This document shows, piece after piece, positions 6,099 to 47,118 of a stretch of DNA of 64,000 bases. The notes under the pieces were generated by a model. That model worked only from the letters and a program-made list of their open reading frames with translations. It made no database searches and was not told where the DNA came from. Source of the DNA: a virus; IMG/VR virus record IMGVR_UViG_3300013131_002268, positions 28,510 to 92,509 of that record. One strand, written 5' to 3'. A program made the translations under genes and the position numbers. Numbering within the stretch: the first letter of the stretch is position 1; each line of letters begins with the position of its first letter.

Positions 6099-7508
6099 TT
6101 AATCAATTATTTGACCGCTTTCAAGTTGTTTTGCGGCTTTAATTCTATCTAAAGCATTACTAATAATAGCTTGGTTACCACCATTTATACCAGTCTTAGC
6201 TTCAAAGGATGTTACAGCGTTTTGCTCTTCACCGATTTCAATCTGAATTTTAGAGTTATCAAAAATGCAATCTTGGAACACCAAACCGTCTCTACCAAAT
6301 CTAGATTTAAGTATCGCAATATTAGCATGGCCACTTTCTTTTTGTGTTAAACTTTTAGCTATACTCATAATAAAGTGACCAATTTGACCTTTTTTAATTG
6401 AACCACCAATTTGGTCAGCCTCAACAACATCAGCCTTTATTGAACTTCGATTACCTTGAACAAATGTCCATCCAGCCATATTAAGGTCTAATATCATTGT
6501 TTCAAATTCACGCATAACATTACCTTCACCAGCATAATAATCATCGAATTTCTTAGATGGTTGAATACAATCAATATAATCCAATATAATTAAATCTGGT
6601 CTGAAACCTTCTGAAATTTTCTTATCAATATATTTTCTAATTGTTTTAATCGTTGTTCCATCACTAGCAAATCTTTTCAGTTTAAGGTTACCTTTAGAGT
6701 TTTGCTCCATTTCCTTTACTTTGGTGATAACCTCATCCCTAAATAACCCTAAATTATTTAATTCAATCTTGGTCCAACACGAATAGTGTTTTCTTTTAAT
6801 TACTTTAGGTTGGTCTTCAAAGAAGATTTGAAGTACATTGTAACCGTTATTAAATGCGCTATTTGCCAGTTTAGTAGCTAAGGTAGTTTTGCCAATCCCG
6901 AATGGCGCAACAACAACCGCTAATTCCGTCTTTGACAGACCACCATTCATAATTTCATCCAATTTTGGTATACCAGTTGAGATTGGATTTCGATAATCAT
7001 CCGCTAAAACCTCTTCCATACCATCAAATAAGGTCGTATCGTCCTCTTTAGTATATCCAACATCCAACGCTTTTTTTATAATTTCATTGGCGGTATCAAA
7101 ATCACTAGATTTACCACCATCAATTAATTTTTGTATTTTTTTGACAGCTTTACTTAACTCTTGTTGTTTACAGAATTTAATAGCCTCTTCCTGTATTAAT
7201 TTAGGTGTTTTTACTGTTAAACCCCTAACTTTATCTAAACTAGCTAAAACAAAGTTAAGTACAATACTATCGTTACTTTGCTTTAATTTCAACTCTAAGG
7301 TCGGATAGTCTGGTATTGAACCGTAAGAATCTTTAATATTCCTAATCTCAGCAACAATATTTTTAAGGTCCACTGTTTCAAAATAATTTGGGTCAATAGC
7401 GTCTATGATACCCTCACCAAATTTAGTATCAACAATGATTTGGTTTATCAAACTATATTGATAATCAACACCTAGATAATTAAAATTAGTTTTTTCAATT
7501 TTACTCAT
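6099..7508 (-). CDS. 41: Replicative DNA helicase, DnaB/T4 gp41 family
   Basis: The 469-aa protein has an N-terminal helical domain (about 1-150). The RecA-type helicase core carries Walker A APFGIGKTT at 201-209, a FFEDQ motif near 235, Walker B LIILDYID near residue 300 and a later GNRSS sensor stretch. The role is unwinding DNA ahead of the phage polymerase as a hexamer on the lagging-strand template (family knowledge). It lies 15 nt upstream of nrdB, and the two may be co-transcribed. A TATTTATA box (7539-7532, coding strand) lies 23 nt upstream of the ATG. In T4 this gene is early or middle, so whether that box drives it is uncertain. Confidence 0.9.
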   Translation of the reverse strand: MSKIEKTNFNYLGVDYQYSLINQIIVDTKFGEGIIDAIDPNYFETVDLKNIVAEIRNIKDSYGSIPDYPTLELKLKQSNDSIVLNFVLASLDKVRGLTVKTPKLIQEEAIKFCKQQELSKAVKKIQKLIDGGKSSDFDTANEIIKKALDVGYTKEDDTTLFDGMEEVLADDYRNPISTGIPKLDEIMNGGLSKTELAVVVAPFGIGKTTLATKLANSAFNNGYNVLQIFFEDQPKVIKRKHYSCWTKIELNNLGLFRDEVITKVKEMEQNSKGNLKLKRFASDGTTIKTIRKYIDKKISEGFRPDLIILDYIDCIQPSKKFDDYYAGEGNVMREFETMILDLNMAGWTFVQGNRSSIKADVVEADQIGGSIKKGQIGHFIMSIAKSLTQKESGHANIAILKSRFGRDGLVFQDCIFDNSKIQIEIGEEQNAVTSFEAKTGINGGNQAIISNALDRIKAAKQLESGQIID

Positions 7509-7580
7509 ATTAGAACATTAAATATTGTTATTATAAATACCATATATATATGGTATAATTGACTTAATTTTCAGGTTTTT

Positions 7581-10361: not shown

Positions 10362-11261
10362 TTAGAACGGTAAATCGTCTTCGTCATCATCAGTACCAGC
10401 TGCTACAGCTGTAGGTTGCATTGCTTCATCACTAGTCAATTTACTATTTGATGAACCGATTGATAATTCACTTTCCAAATCATCAGTTGTTGATTCTGAA
10501 TCATTATTTTCGGATAGTGATTCCTTATCAACCCAACATTCTTTAACTTTATCCCAAGCTGGAACACCACCTCTAACAACCACTTCCAAGTAGTCGTATG
10601 ATTTAACAGCATAAATACCGTCTCTCCAAGTTCTAGTATCACCCAACCACTCAGTAACTTTAGCTTTATCTTCAGATAGTGGGGTTTTATCCAATTGAAT
10701 AATTGATTGAACAACTGGTGAGCCGTTAGCGTTTCTAGCTAAATTAATCTGAAGGTCTCTACCTGTTTCTGGGTCAGCAATATCATGCTTAACAGCCTTA
10801 TAGATACCAACAATCTTATCGAAGGTACCAGTTTTTTGCCAGTTATCTGCGAATCGCCAGAATTTAACACCCTCGTTCTCTTTATCTCTATCAATAACTT
10901 TTACAATATAGAATTTACGAACGTTGAATTTTTTAGCAAGTTCTTTGCTTTCTTCGGTACCTTCGGCTCTTAAAGCATTTCTTGTCTCACAAAATGGACA
11001 ATCTTTACCCTCTTCTTTGTCCAAACAAGGAAATGTTTTCCAATCACCATCAAGTTTATACTTATGGGCATGCATTTCTACGAATGGGGTTGCTTGACCT
11101 TCAGCAGCTGGAAGGATTCTAATTGTTTTAGTACCTTCTTTAACACCGTCTGGAAGGTAGGTGCTGAAATAATTTGCTAAGTCATATGTCTTAGCCTCGA
11201 AATTTGAATTACTACCAGATTTACTATACTGGTTTAAAATTGCGTCTAATGGATTACTCAT
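10362..11261 (-). CDS. 32: Single-stranded DNA-binding protein, T4 gp32 type
   Basis: The 299-aa protein has the gp32 zinc site: His66 (or His64), Cys79, Cys88 and Cys91, close to T4's His64/Cys77/Cys87/Cys90. The core is basic and aromatic, typical of the OB fold. After about residue 240 a Ser/Asp/Glu-rich linker leads to the acidic tail DDDEDDLPF, which recruits replication proteins. It coats ssDNA and organises polymerase, helicase and UvsX. It has its own strong host-type promoter (11328-11358) and a terminator directly downstream, consistent with high independent expression. Autogenous translational control, as in T4, cannot be judged from the sequence. Confidence 0.93.
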   Translation of the reverse strand: MSNPLDAILNQYSKSGSNSNFEAKTYDLANYFSTYLPDGVKEGTKTIRILPAAEGQATPFVEMHAHKYKLDGDWKTFPCLDKEEGKDCPFCETRNALRAEGTEESKELAKKFNVRKFYIVKVIDRDKENEGVKFWRFADNWQKTGTFDKIVGIYKAVKHDIADPETGRDLQINLARNANGSPVVQSIIQLDKTPLSEDKAKVTEWLGDTRTWRDGIYAVKSYDYLEVVVRGGVPAWDKVKECWVDKESLSENNDSESTTDDLESELSIGSSNSKLTSDEAMQPTAVAAGTDDDEDDLPF

Positions 11262-11327
11262 GTTTTTAAAATTTAAATGTTAATAATTATTATTGTTATG
11301 TTATATATGTTCGTATAACACACATTG

Positions 11328-11358
11328 CAAATGTACCACAAAATTGCAGCGGTGTCAA
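11328..11358 (-). promoter_or_regulatory. Bacteroidota-type promoter for the SSB gene
   Basis: On the minus strand TTG (11358-11356), 20 nt, then TACATTTG (11335-11328) matches the Bacteroidota -33/-7 pattern TTG-N19/20-TAnnTTTG. The predicted start lies about 60 nt before the SSB ATG, leaving a long A/T-rich leader. This implies that the host RNA polymerase transcribes the gene without the late phage factor. Confidence 0.7.
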
Positions 11359-42376: not shown

Positions 42377-43528
42377 ATGGCAGTATCAAATTCAGAAAAG
42401 GAAAAATTGTTTGAAAGATTCAGACATACGATGGGTGCTCCCATAAGAAACATAGAACTTACAGACGAACAATTATGCACCTTATTAGAAATTGCAATTG
42501 AGGATTATTCTCAATATGTACAAGAATGGTTGATTGAACATCAATGGCAATCATTACTGGGCCAGAATGTTGATACGATTGATATGTCATTCGCATTAAG
42601 TGTAAGGTCTTTGGATTTTATGACATCATACACTTATGCCTATTCAAAACAAGTCGGTTTACAAGCAAGAGGTCCATGGGAACTTAAAAAGGATTATATT
42701 GAATTGGAAGCTGGTAAACAAGTATATCAAATACCAGCTGGTAGAGAAATAAATGAGGTTTTATGGATAACACCACCAACAACAGATATGGCGTTATTTG
42801 CCAATTATGCTGGTATTGATTATGGTTTTGGTGGTGGTTATGGTCAATTAGGTTCAACAGGTGGTGGATTTAATGCTGCTGGCGCTGGTGGTGCTGGTGG
42901 TTATTATATTGCACCAGCCTATGATATTCTATTAACAGCTTCAGATTTTAATTTGAAGAACAGGATATTAAGAAGTGAATTGGTATATAAAGTAACTGCT
43001 GGGCCTAATGGCACAAGATTATTACATTTGATGTCGACACCAGGCTCAAAATTATCATTTGGTCATGGTATTGGTGGTGCAACGAGTAGTAGTATCAATA
43101 TGACGGGTTGCCAAGTATGGTACCATTATTATGATACTACACCAGAAAACGTTGACCAATGTAGACTTGAAAATCCTGACATTATCCTAATGCCAAATGA
43201 CGTGCCGTTAGCTAAATTAGAGTATGAGAGGTTCAATGAACCAACAAAAACATTGATACGTCAATTATTCTTTGCTGAAGCTAAAAGGGCTTTGGGTAGG
43301 ACAAGAGGTAAATTTGGTGGTATCGTTGGACCACCAGAAGCTGAACGTACACTTGACTATGAAACTTTAATATCGGAAGGTAATGAAGAAAGAAAGGCTA
43401 TCTTAGAAAGATTGGATGAGAGGTTAGTTAGATTATCATCGACTTCGCAACTTGAGCGAGGGGCCAAAGAAGCTGAATTTCTCAATCAAGCTTTAAAATA
43501 CAGACCTTTAGGCTTCTGGGTGTACTAA
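42377..43528 (+). CDS. Virion neck-like structural protein (T4 gp13-like)
   Basis: The 383-aa protein begins MAVSNSEKEKLFERFRHTMG, has a Gly-rich loop at about 152-175 (FGGGYGQLGSTGGGF; GAGGAGGYY) and a conserved C-terminus with AKRALGRTRGKFGGIVG and LERLDERLVRLSS. This organisation matches neck/connector proteins of large T4-like phages and roughly T4 gp13, which joins head to tail. Glycine-rich insertions of this kind usually form an exposed loop. A late-type box precedes it. Assignment to gp13 is by resemblance, not alignment. Confidence 0.65.
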   Translation: MAVSNSEKEKLFERFRHTMGAPIRNIELTDEQLCTLLEIAIEDYSQYVQEWLIEHQWQSLLGQNVDTIDMSFALSVRSLDFMTSYTYAYSKQVGLQARGPWELKKDYIELEAGKQVYQIPAGREINEVLWITPPTTDMALFANYAGIDYGFGGGYGQLGSTGGGFNAAGAGGAGGYYIAPAYDILLTASDFNLKNRILRSELVYKVTAGPNGTRLLHLMSTPGSKLSFGHGIGGATSSSINMTGCQVWYHYYDTTPENVDQCRLENPDIILMPNDVPLAKLEYERFNEPTKTLIRQLFFAEAKRALGRTRGKFGGIVGPPEAERTLDYETLISEGNEERKAILERLDERLVRLSSTSQLERGAKEAEFLNQALKYRPLGFWVY

Positions 43529-43533
43529 ACAGT

Positions 43534-43613
43534 TTACGAAAATTATTGTAATTAGCTAAGTTTTTTTGTATATTTGTCGTGACCATAGGTCTATGGTTAA
43601 AAAATTTTCGTAA
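43534..43613 (+). promoter_or_regulatory. Polymerase promoter bracketed by nested inverted repeats
   Basis: TTG (43546-43548), 20 nt and TATATTTG (43569-43576) form a host-type promoter. At the expected transcription start lies a palindrome, ACCATAGGTCTATGGT (43582-43597), which can also fold as a 6-bp RNA stem with GGTC loop. TTACGAAAATT (43534-43544) and its exact inverse AATTTTCGTAA (43603-43613) enclose the whole element. This arrangement suggests an operator or 5' hairpin controlling polymerase synthesis. Confidence 0.6.
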
Positions 43614-43640
43614 TATATAATAATTAAACAAAATTATTTA

Positions 43641-46600
43641 ATGTCTGAAATCAATTTTGAAGTGATTGAGCGGTTCATTGCAGGTAAAGATGAACAGAAA
43701 TATATCGTTGCTATTGAAGCGCCAAATGATGAGAATAAAGCATACTTGGTCATTAATGACCCAGACACGGGTAAGCGTGTAGAAGTTCACACATATCGAC
43801 CATTTCTTTGGATGAAAGAGGTTGTTGGTAAACAACTATATGGTGGAAATAGGGGTAAGTTAAAGGATGCGATGCTTAAGTATGGTATTAAGATTGAGGC
43901 GTTAAAAACTGATAATTCTGAAGGTAAGATACCAGCTAGAATGTCAAGAGGTTTTAAGTATCTTGTAACATGTAGTAAAACACCCAACGACCTTATAAAT
44001 TTTTTCAAACGAGGCGGTTTTGACCCATTTAAGAAAGAGAATTCAAGGTTAGTCATGAGAATTCAACCAGCTGAACAGTTTTTGATTCAGACTGGTAAAC
44101 GAATGTTTAAGGGTATGGAAGACTATGACGACCTACACAGATTTCAATTTGACCTTGAAACTGAGGGTCTTAATCCTGAGACTGATGCCATATTTCAAAT
44201 AGGTTTAAGAGATAATAGGGGTTACGAAATGGTTTTAGAAACCATTGGTGAAACACAACAAGAAAGACGTGACAGTGAAAGATTAAATATTGTTTCATTT
44301 GCCAATGAGGTTATGCGAATAAAACCTGATATTATCGCTGGATATAATTCAGAGAACTTCGATTGGGATTATTTTGAGCGAAGATGTCAGCGGTTGGGAC
44401 TTGATTTTAGTGGTTTATTGTTTGGTTTTGATGGTAAAACACCGTTGAAAAGAATCGAGAATTCAACACTAAAATTGGGTAATGAGACTGAACGATATAC
44501 TCAAACAACTCTATGGGGTACAAACATATTGGATACATCTCATGCTGTGAGACGAGCGCAAGCTATTAATTCAGACATAAAGAGTTGGGGTCTTAAATAC
44601 ATTACAAAATTCTCAAAAATCAATAAGAAGAATCGTGTGTATGTGGAGGGTGATAAAATACATTCAACATGGGCTGATACCCGTGACTATTGGTTCAATA
44701 ACGAAGACGGTTCTTGGGGTCTATTAGAGGGTTCAGGATATGTTAATGAATTATCAGAACCATTAAAAATCGTTAAGGGTGACTATATTGTTCAAAGATA
44801 CCTTTTAGATGACCTTTGGGAAACAGAGAAAGTTGATGCAATCTATAATCAAGCCTCTTTCCTGTTGGCCAAGTTGTTACCAACATCTTATATGAGAAGT
44901 TCAACAATGGGTACTGCTGGTCAGTGGACATTGATATTGTTAGCATGGTCATATGAGAACGGTTTAGGTATTCCAGATTATGAACCAAAAAGAGATTTTA
45001 CTGGTGGTTTATCAAGATTATTGGAAACTGGTTTTGCAGAGAACGTTGCGAAATTAGATTATGCTGCACTTTATCCAAAAACAACATTAACTTATGACAT
45101 CTTTCCAGATTTGGATATCAGTGGTGTGATGAAGGGTCTTCTTAAATATGTTGTTGATACACGGGACACTTACAAAACTTTAACAGGTGATTATAAGTTT
45201 AAAGCAAAAAAACTTAAAGAATCAAATGCTAGTGAAGATGAAATTGAAAAGGCATCTAAAATGGCTTCAGATTATGATAAAAAACAATTACCACTTAAAA
45301 TATTGGCAAACTCTTTCTATGGGTCATTCGGAGCACCGTACATATTCCCATGGGGTGATAGCATGTGTGCTGAAAAAATCACATGCATGTCAAGACAACA
45401 CTTAAGATTACTGGTTAAAGTATTTAAGGAAAAATATGATTTGAGACCTTTGGTTATGGATACCGATGGTGTTAACTTCGCATTACCTAAAAATATCAAT
45501 GAAATTAAATATACTGCAAAGGGTGACCATTGGAAAACGAAAGATAAAGCTGGTGAAGAATTGATTGGACTTGATGCTTGTGTTGCGTATTCTAATGAGA
45601 CCTATATGGAAAAATGGATGGGTTTGGATGTGGATGATGTTTGTACATCAACAATCAATTTCAAAAGAAAGAATTATGCTAACCTAATTGATGGTAAGGT
45701 CAAATTGGTCGGTAATTCAATCAAGTCTAAAAAAATGCCAACCTATATTGAAGAGTTTTTGGATAAAGGTATCCGATTACTTTTAGATGGTAAAGGTTAT
45801 GAATTCATTCAACATTATAATGAATATGTTGAATTGATTTATAATTATAAAATACCATTGGTTAAAATAGCTTCTAAAGCAAAGGTTAAAGAAAGTGTTA
45901 GTGAATATCTTAAGGACTGTAAAACGCTAACTAAGGCTGGTAACTACAAAGCAAGAAAGGCTCACATGGAATTGGTATTGGAACATGATTTAAACCCAAA
46001 TCTAGGTGATGTTATTTATTATGTTAATATCGGTGATACAAAATCAAAAGGTGATGTTACAGTTACAACTGATAAGGAAACTGGTCAAAGAACAGTAACA
46101 CTTAATTGTAAATTAATACCACAAGAACAAATTGAGGCTAACCCAGAACTTACGACTGATGAATATAATGCTCCAAGATATCTTAATGCACTTAATACAC
46201 GAATAACTCCATTGTTAGTATGTTTCAGTGAGGATATTAGAAATAATATACTTATCGATATGGTTACGGATAAAAAAACTAAGAATCTGGTATTAACGGA
46301 AAAAAGTTTTTTTACAGAAAGTCAATGTAAATTAGTGGCTGGTTATCCTTTATCATCTGAAGACCAAGACTCATATGCTGAACTTATGCAAATTGAGGAT
46401 AAGGAAATAAAATTTTGGTTGGCCGCAAATGAAATACCAAATCAAATGTCAGCCGATGAATGGAAATCTGTTGTGTTTGAGTTTAACGAACGCATAAAGG
46501 AAGAAAAAACAAAGAAATTAGCCGAAGAACGAGAAAAAATTATTGAAATTTCGAAGCGTTTAGAGGTCAGTGATTTAAACAAAATTAAATCAGAAGGTTT

Positions 46601-47114
46601 TATCCCAGATAGTATATTGGTTTTTGCTGATGTTGATTCGAATACATTATCATTTATTTCAAAAGAGTATAATGAATCCATAATAGGCTTAGATGTGCTA
46701 TTCAAATTTGAAGACCTAGCTAACTTAAGGCATGCATTTTATTGTAAAATATTCCCAATGATTATCGATGGTAATCTTTATGATAGATGGACAACTTTCG
46801 TTCATAAAATTAAAGATACAACAATCGATGTTGAACTTACAACCGATAATTGTGGTTATTGGATTGATAAGGTATGTGAAATAGGTTATGACAATTTCAT
46901 TAACCTTTCAATCGGTGAGATAACTGATATGTGGATTAAGGCGTTAAGTGGTGATACAACCACACAAATAACTGTAGAAGAATTCGATGAAGACCACGCA
47001 AATGATATGGTATTAAACCATATGGTCGAGTCTCTTGATGATACCGAAATAGATGATATAATGTCTTTGGTTAAAAATGAAATGATAAATATATCAGAAT
47101 CGGAAATTCTCTAA
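43641..47114 (+). CDS. 43: DNA polymerase, family B (T4 gp43 type)
   Basis: The 1157-aa protein has exonuclease motifs Asp171/Glu173 (FDLETEG), NSENFD at 236-241 and YLLDD at 387-391. Polymerase motif A is DYAALYPK (Asp473; the usual SLYPS is changed), motif B has Lys553, Asn557 and Tyr560-Gly561 (KILANSFYG), and motif C is MDTDG (Asp607, Asp609). KRKNY follows near 675. The C-terminal part after motif C is about 550 residues, roughly twice that of T4, and includes a charged helix near 950-980. It replicates phage DNA with proofreading and is controlled by the promoter at 43546. Confidence 0.95.
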   Translation: MSEINFEVIERFIAGKDEQKYIVAIEAPNDENKAYLVINDPDTGKRVEVHTYRPFLWMKEVVGKQLYGGNRGKLKDAMLKYGIKIEALKTDNSEGKIPARMSRGFKYLVTCSKTPNDLINFFKRGGFDPFKKENSRLVMRIQPAEQFLIQTGKRMFKGMEDYDDLHRFQFDLETEGLNPETDAIFQIGLRDNRGYEMVLETIGETQQERRDSERLNIVSFANEVMRIKPDIIAGYNSENFDWDYFERRCQRLGLDFSGLLFGFDGKTPLKRIENSTLKLGNETERYTQTTLWGTNILDTSHAVRRAQAINSDIKSWGLKYITKFSKINKKNRVYVEGDKIHSTWADTRDYWFNNEDGSWGLLEGSGYVNELSEPLKIVKGDYIVQRYLLDDLWETEKVDAIYNQASFLLAKLLPTSYMRSSTMGTAGQWTLILLAWSYENGLGIPDYEPKRDFTGGLSRLLETGFAENVAKLDYAALYPKTTLTYDIFPDLDISGVMKGLLKYVVDTRDTYKTLTGDYKFKAKKLKESNASEDEIEKASKMASDYDKKQLPLKILANSFYGSFGAPYIFPWGDSMCAEKITCMSRQHLRLLVKVFKEKYDLRPLVMDTDGVNFALPKNINEIKYTAKGDHWKTKDKAGEELIGLDACVAYSNETYMEKWMGLDVDDVCTSTINFKRKNYANLIDGKVKLVGNSIKSKKMPTYIEEFLDKGIRLLLDGKGYEFIQHYNEYVELIYNYKIPLVKIASKAKVKESVSEYLKDCKTLTKAGNYKARKAHMELVLEHDLNPNLGDVIYYVNIGDTKSKGDVTVTTDKETGQRTVTLNCKLIPQEQIEANPELTTDEYNAPRYLNALNTRITPLLVCFSEDIRNNILIDMVTDKKTKNLVLTEKSFFTESQCKLVAGYPLSSEDQDSYAELMQIEDKEIKFWLAANEIPNQMSADEWKSVVFEFNERIKEEKTKKLAEEREKIIEISKRLEVSDLNKIKSEGFIPDSILVFADVDSNTLSFISKEYNESIIGLDVLFKFEDLANLRHAFYCKIFPMIIDGNLYDRWTTFVHKIKDTTIDVELTTDNCGYWIDKVCEIGYDNFINLSIGEITDMWIKALSGDTTTQITVEEFDEDHANDMVLNHMVESLDDTEIDDIMSLVKNEMINISESEIL

Positions 47115-47118
47115 CAGT

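Follow-up and report, generated by a model that had tools for sequence, protein, structure and literature searches.

The promoter of the family B DNA polymerase gene in the virus DNA analysed here (the whole stretch of 64,000 nucleotides, hereafter the window) carries a palindrome that, judged by comparison with related records, is a real, conserved cis element associated with this gene. The promoter match and the dyad are present in the sequence, and the dyad is conserved and goes with the polymerase gene. We favour the reading of the palindrome as a DNA operator on the polymerase promoter, for which we consider the case evenly balanced.

Promoter and predicted transcript start of the polymerase gene

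The polymerase gene (43641–47114, + strand; 1157 aa; PF00136, PF03104, phrog_262) is separated from a neck-like gene (42377–43528) by a gap of 112 nt, and both the promoter and the palindrome lie inside this gap. The promoter comprises a TTG −33 element of the Bacteroidota type (43546–43548, + strand) and, after a 20-nt spacer whose length is shared by most relatives, the −7 box TATATTTG (43569–43576, + strand; consensus TAnnTTTG), in which TATATTT is invariant among six aligned sequences. In the excerpted text of two papers, the consensus of Bacteroidota primary-sigma promoters is given as TTTG at −33 and TAnnTTTG at −7 (PMC7366714, PMC9723704), and the −7 box of Flavobacterium psychrophilum is reported at −12 to −5 (PMC9723704, excerpt). 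Since this box position makes G43581 (+ strand) the predicted +1, immediately 5′ of the palindrome, the earlier statement locating the palindrome at the predicted start is upheld, as a prediction. TTG lies about 20 nt 5′ of TAnnTTTG at the window promoter and at those of most relatives, as in the Bacteroidota primary-sigma promoter; the palindrome, however, is no part of this promoter type. The sequence-only reading had proposed a host-type promoter. A promoter match is indeed present, but a sigma-70 scan of it gives only 9/12, and the Bacteroidota primary-sigma type seems to be the better reading.

Neither intrinsic terminators in 43000–44200 nor Rfam families at gathering scores in the whole window were found. 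The polymerase search gave three matches in genome_contigs at 37–43% identity, which are too distant for naming a host (MAG labels Mycoplasmatota, Tenericutes and Candidatus Scatousia), and the best identity among GenBank phages was ~30% at most.

Conservation of the palindrome in close relatives

The palindrome, ACCATAG-GT-CTATGGT (43582–43597), has two 7-bp arms around a 2-nt centre and is not a fully symmetric 16-mer, so that the previously described 16-bp palindrome keeps its location, as predicted, but loses its full symmetry. Together with a G.U pair involving the predicted +1, it forms a potential 7-bp hairpin with a GGUC tetraloop (43581–43598, + strand). In local shuffles, P was 0.038 for arms of 7 with a gap of 2 and 0.16 for gaps up to 4, and the window contains 10 palindromes with arms of 7 and a gap of 2, compared with 6.8 in shuffles. 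Since, on the window sequence alone, the palindrome barely departs from chance, the case rests on its conservation.

All five close IMG/VR records (L001–L004 and L074; polymerases 79–86% identical) carry the palindrome in the same position, behind a Bacteroidota-type TTG-N20-TATATTT promoter; these records represent three distinct promoters (L001 = L074, L003 = L004). An alignment of six sequences, four of them distinct, shows variation in only one of the 16 palindrome columns, at the central base 7 (A or G); the other 15 are invariant. The conserved core is thus ACCATA-RGTC-TATGGT plus the pair at the predicted +1, which is G.U in the window, A-U in L082 and L085, and G-C in L086 (contigs of L002, L001, and L003, respectively); the loop is GGUC in the window and AGUC in L082 and L085. 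In the same alignment, the leader adjoining the palindrome shows gaps and changes, and conservation resumes in the final bases 5′ of the ATG. Searching the 92.5-kb record for further copies of the full palindrome, RGTC centre included, found none at up to 2 mismatches. An IMG/VR scan for the window-type palindrome gave 13 matches, five upstream of the same polymerase and eight in loci lacking it; since chance matches are expected at this length, the scan alone proves nothing. Because relatives keep the palindrome at the predicted start and it is tied to the polymerase gene, a repressor operator and a 5′ RNA hairpin, the two readings suggested from the sequence alone, are the right pair to weigh.

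The palindrome had also been described as nested within an 11-bp inverted repeat, and conservation of both repeats in relatives had been named as a check. The palindrome is kept in relatives, so its loss there, named beforehand as the refuting outcome, did not occur; the outer repeat is not kept. Its arms, TTACGAAAATT (43534–43544, + strand) and the inverted copy (43603–43613, − strand), do match exactly over 11 bp (14 nt at 93% if extended), with P = 0.0165 in shuffles of the 112-nt intergenic stretch. Inverted repeats with arms of at least 11 and gaps of 9–100 number 13 in the window, compared with a mean of 3.9 in 20 shuffles (range 1–9). The outer repeat is absent from the aligned close relatives and has no further copy within 1 mismatch across the window. 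Since it is not conserved and one of its arms would be untranscribed DNA from the predicted start, we set it aside as a component of the element, and the nested architecture falls with it. A phage-wide operator was likewise rejected, as neither the outer repeat nor the RGTC-centred palindrome has further close copies.

Different dyads on the same promoter in distant relatives

The comparison was extended to 110 loci with a polymerase start, which gave 66 distinct upstream regions after identical upstream 100-mers were merged. Enough upstream DNA was available in 65 of them (L038, whose upstream region is cut off, was dropped), and 54 belong to polymerases of at least 44% identity; the 11 rows at 36–39% identity stand outside this count. 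The first promoter bears a perfect stem of 9 bp or more in 40 of the 54 regions, namely 32/33 of type A, 6/6 of type B, and 2/2 of type C, and all four regions of type D, the type of the window, have stems of 7–8 bp. In type E (n = 3; L006, L007, and L008), whose promoters were registered by hand, a hairpin directly follows a weaker −7 box. The polymerase promoters of L005, L010, and L078 show no clear dyad, the palindrome is differently placed in L025, L055, and L064, and L116 has a 9-bp palindrome at a doubtful promoter match that is neither its first nor its last. For the 11 polymerases at 36–39% identity, no stem longer than 7 bp was found within the last 120 nt; one of them, L071, has a 9-bp palindrome at −136. 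With dinucleotide shuffles of 120 nt, 42 of the 65 regions reached P ≤ 0.05 and 20 reached P ≤ 0.01, and the value for the window was 0.159.

The dyads differ in sequence and share the promoter. Type A (n = 33) has the form TTG-N20-TAACTTTGTA-NNN-TACAAAGTTA, in which the left arm includes the −7 box and the dyad spans −12 to +11 by the predicted starts. In types B (n = 6) and C (n = 2), the dyad starts within or just behind the −7 box, with TTAA close to both ends; on the same promoter, these other dyads of the relatives start between −8 and −4 and end between +16 and +20. The A-type arms comprise 328 Watson-Crick pairs, no G-T pair, and one mismatch (329 pairs), with changes on both sides at pairs 4 and 10 and with 12 different loops. 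The spacing of the A-type half-sites is the same in 30 of 33 regions and shifted by 2 bp in L014, L052, and L053, where the 3-nt loop is kept. We also considered a reverse promoter starting from the mirrored −7 box and rejected it, as TTG was found on the other strand at 19–21 nt in 0/33 A-type regions. Two or more promoter matches occur in 40 of the 54 regions, the stem at the last one being always 7 bp or shorter, and a second, ATG-adjacent promoter without a long dyad is present in 40 of 41 phages of types A, B, and C.

In the polymerase tree, types B, C, D, and E each form one supported clade, and the A-type rows form no single supported clade; the rooting serves for drawing only, and L123 was kept as a bad row despite its broken reading frame. 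On this view, the dyad was retained and the sequence forming it was exchanged.

Specificity for the polymerase gene

An IMG/VR scan for the A-type dyad GTAACTTTGTNNNNNACAAAGTTAAAA, a pattern that excludes the 21- and 25-base variants and the TAAG type, returned 33 stretches, some of them near-identical. The polymerase match starts 97–122 nt downstream in 32 of these, and the remaining one (L098) is truncated, but its contig is that of L021, on which the polymerase is present. Exact A-type copies were found once each in 7 of 20 records, none of the 20 having a second copy within 2 mismatches, and matches with 3 mismatches numbered 10 versus 22 for the reversed control. Among noncoding promoter-like sites, a dyad of at least 8 bp occurs at 1 of 138 in G001 and 1 of 31 in G017, in each case the polymerase promoter. 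In the record of the window, none of 16 promoter-like sites reaches 8 bp, and the polymerase palindrome, with 7, ties for first with the promoter of the single-stranded DNA-binding protein (SSB) gene. Since in the relatives a palindrome lies on the polymerase promoter and on hardly any other, the conserved palindrome is probably a dedicated control site of the polymerase gene.

The gene order also bears on this association. In close relatives, the polymerase gene stands between a 127-aa gene on its upstream side and the neck gene on its downstream side, and the window has the opposite order: positions 43529–47118, containing the polymerase gene, its promoter and the palindrome, are inverted as a unit relative to the neighbours. 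Among 80 loci, the polymerase is preceded by the 127-aa gene (+) and followed by the neck gene (−) in 55, one (L025) has the reversed order of the window, and in the remaining 24 one or both neighbours went unmatched. The ends of the inversion share no exact inverted repeat of 8 nt or more. Because the promoter and palindrome were inverted together with the polymerase gene, the element belongs to this gene.

A proposed DNA operator and its alternatives

Classical repressor operators of phages and bacteria are two-fold symmetric and overlap promoters. The dyads described here resemble them in that they overlap the −7 box or come right after it and have conserved arms and a free centre; they differ in that there are one or very few copies per genome and a known repressor is lacking, and in that the sequence is replaced between clades while the symmetry is retained. 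In the favoured operator reading, host RNA polymerase with a Bacteroidota primary sigma factor would initiate at about G43581, and a two-fold symmetric DNA-binding protein, presumably encoded by the phage or drawn from its replication machinery, would bind the dyad from +1 to +18. The bound protein may block initiation or promoter escape, which would set the output of polymerase apart from that of most other phage genes, and the second ATG-adjacent promoter of types A, B, and C, which has no long dyad, would escape this control.

Several observations argue for the operator. Its dyad symmetry overlaps the promoter: the A-type dyad contains the −7 box, and the B- and C-type dyads reach at least −4, upstream of the predicted +1. 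In addition, the five close records keep the dyad although their upstream gene differs. The long dyads at the first promoter of 40 of the 54 regions, the near restriction of such dyads to the polymerase promoter, and the A-type arms, with both-side changes at pairs 4 and 10 and no G-T pair, point the same way. A further copy of the half-sites beside the helicase gene, described below, is what a sequence-specific replication regulator would lead one to expect, though it is not conserved. On the other hand, the 2-bp spacing change with a constant 3-nt loop in L014, L052, and L053 is easier to reconcile with a hairpin than with a rigid dimer site, and the dyad of the window group begins at the predicted +1, as an RNA hairpin would. 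Since the dyad sequence differs between clades, an operator would need several repressors or a quickly changing one, and a search of 10 records (possibly fragments) for two regulator families found HTH_3 in one and RHH_1 in none. Also against the operator are the near-chance length of the window palindrome taken alone, the absence of the helicase-side copy from six relatives, the phages noted above in which the dyad is unclear (L005, L010, and L078) or differently placed (L025, L055, and L064), and the 11 polymerases at 36–39% identity, which lack a longer stem close to the gene.

The main rival of the DNA operator is a hairpin at the 5′ end of the polymerase mRNA, which would serve either as an autogenous translational operator like that of T4 gp43 or as a leader structure through which mRNA decay or the access of ribosomes is controlled; we consider it rather unlikely. 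In the window group, the hairpin begins exactly at the predicted +1, where the pair varies while pairing is kept, and the folding energies range from −5.4 to −8.5 kcal/mol. The gp43 operator of T4 and RB69 is described in the excerpted text of PMC3014915 as a hairpin of 16–18 nt, 18 nt in T4, located ~40 nt upstream of the AUG, and the 18-nt hairpin expected from the predicted +1 in the window resembles it in size and in its place before a family B polymerase start codon, ending 42 nt before the ATG (37–39 nt in relatives). The loop, however, is RGUC here and UAAC-like (UAAC, CAAC, UAAA) in T4-type operators, the dyads of the relatives lie partly in promoter DNA, and the hosts, judged from the promoter type, probably lack Shine-Dalgarno sites. 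L006–L008 likewise have a hairpin that begins at the predicted +1 and in L007 includes one G.U pair, the stem length shifts around a constant 3-nt loop in L014, L052, and L053, and the SSB leader of the phage of the window forms a conserved hairpin with an 8- or 10-nt loop, which parallels T4 gp32. In type A, which accounts for 33 of the 54 regions, a transcript from the dyad promoter would instead begin in the loop, and L109, L124, and L014 form no hairpin when folded from the predicted +1. The B- and C-type dyads extend at least 4 bp upstream of the predicted +1, and the absence of G-T among the 329 A-type pairs likewise speaks against the RNA hairpin. If the dyad were a generic mRNA stabiliser, many genes should carry one, whereas a long dyad is found at only 1 of 138 G001 promoters, and the window leader folds only weakly better than shuffles (z = −1.06 for 100 nt and −1.70 for 60 nt). 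The DNA operator is the simplest single mechanism that covers all groups, and a switch of mechanism between clades is possible.

That the promoter and dyad form a replication origin or primer-RNA site which lies before the polymerase gene by chance seems very improbable to us. The A-type dyad occurs as a single copy per record, adjoins a replication gene and is followed by A+T-rich DNA, and the skew changes sign ~3 kb (G000), 7 kb (G017), and 10 kb (G001) from the site. These changes match changes in gene direction, however, and none lies at the site itself; since the element in the window was inverted along with the polymerase gene, it behaves as part of that gene. We give equally little credence to the window palindrome being a functionless by-product of A+T-rich promoter sequence. 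Its length is near chance (P of 0.04–0.16, with 0.159 in the 120-nt upstream test), but 15 of its 16 columns are invariant beside a leader with gaps and changes, and 40 more distant upstream regions have long dyads on the same promoter.

The polymerase itself speaks against the gp43 analogy. The 52 PDB sequences that match it at E ≤ 1e-3 have lengths of 733–793 or 1160–1228 residues, and none has the length of gp43, which is ~900 residues. The best structure matches are family B enzymes of 733–793 residues, which we take to be archaeal, and a distant family B kinship between the polymerase and gp43 is possible.

A possible second site beside the helicase gene

The same 6-bp half-sites with the same spacing recur as ACCATA-TATA-TATGGT at 7539–7554 (no strand assigned), 30 nt before the ATG of a DnaB-like replicative helicase gene (6099–7508, − strand). 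This is the one further exact copy of ACCATA-N4-TATGGT with a free centre in the 92.5-kb record, and a copy with 1 mismatch lies at 2101–2116. The helicase-side copy is doubtful because, although present in the identical record L180, it is missing from the six other relatives (L181–L186). In six records, ACCATA-N4-TATGGT at up to 1 mismatch was no commoner than the reversed control, and inspection by eye found no TAnnTTTG box in front of the copy. The copy may have arisen by chance or may be bound by the same regulator as a second site. With it, the core is no longer unique within the window, and the weighing of the readings is unchanged.

Implications for phage polymerase control

Tentatively, and with more doubt than confidence, we propose that a group of large uncultivated phages, probably infecting Bacteroidota, carries one dedicated dyad on the polymerase promoter whose symmetry is selected while its sequence is replaced between clades. 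It would switch this one gene, perhaps autogenously, by way of promoter DNA and, for some clades, also through a 5′ hairpin of the transcript, and in many of these phages a second promoter would escape it. Control of polymerase dosage is known in detail for T4-type phages; the polymerase lineage here differs, and the hosts probably lack Shine-Dalgarno sites. A literature search, whose scope excluded subscription journals and preprints, found no description of the polymerase-promoter dyad. As a single, easily recognised element common to dozens of uncultivated phage records, it provides a defined experimental target, and the SSB leader provides a second.

Further observations on SSB leaders and polymerase frames

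At the SSB promoter of the window (11261–11335, − strand), the leader can form a hairpin in which TGTTATA and TATAACA flank an 8- or 10-nt loop. The hairpin was present in 8/8 loci inspected, one of them identical to the window, and ends 33–40 nt before the ATG in the six loci folded. It resembles the autoregulated leader of T4 gene 32 as a structured element upstream of an A+U-rich SSB leader; it differs in being a simple hairpin, with no pseudoknot shown and with a putative function. In G001 (~124300–124453, − strand), an inverted repeat (AAAATAGT ... ACTATTTT) seems to separate two tandem promoters of the SSB gene. The SSB and helicase proteins of L162 and L180 (G021, 162.5 kb) are 100% identical to those of the window, and G021 has no match to the polymerase promoter DNA of the window; it is either a fragment or a mosaic relative.

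Short frames surround the polymerase of G017 (L123), whose first 550 codons contain 44 stops; sequencing errors or a recoded stop codon may explain these seemingly broken frames. In L058, L061, L062, L064, L069, L072, L078, and L109, the polymerase match or frame is ~1 kb longer than in the rest, the record of L109 having a 1611-aa frame. Several loci show a break in the match, at residue 608 or 616. These longer frames and breaks suggest an intein or other insert.
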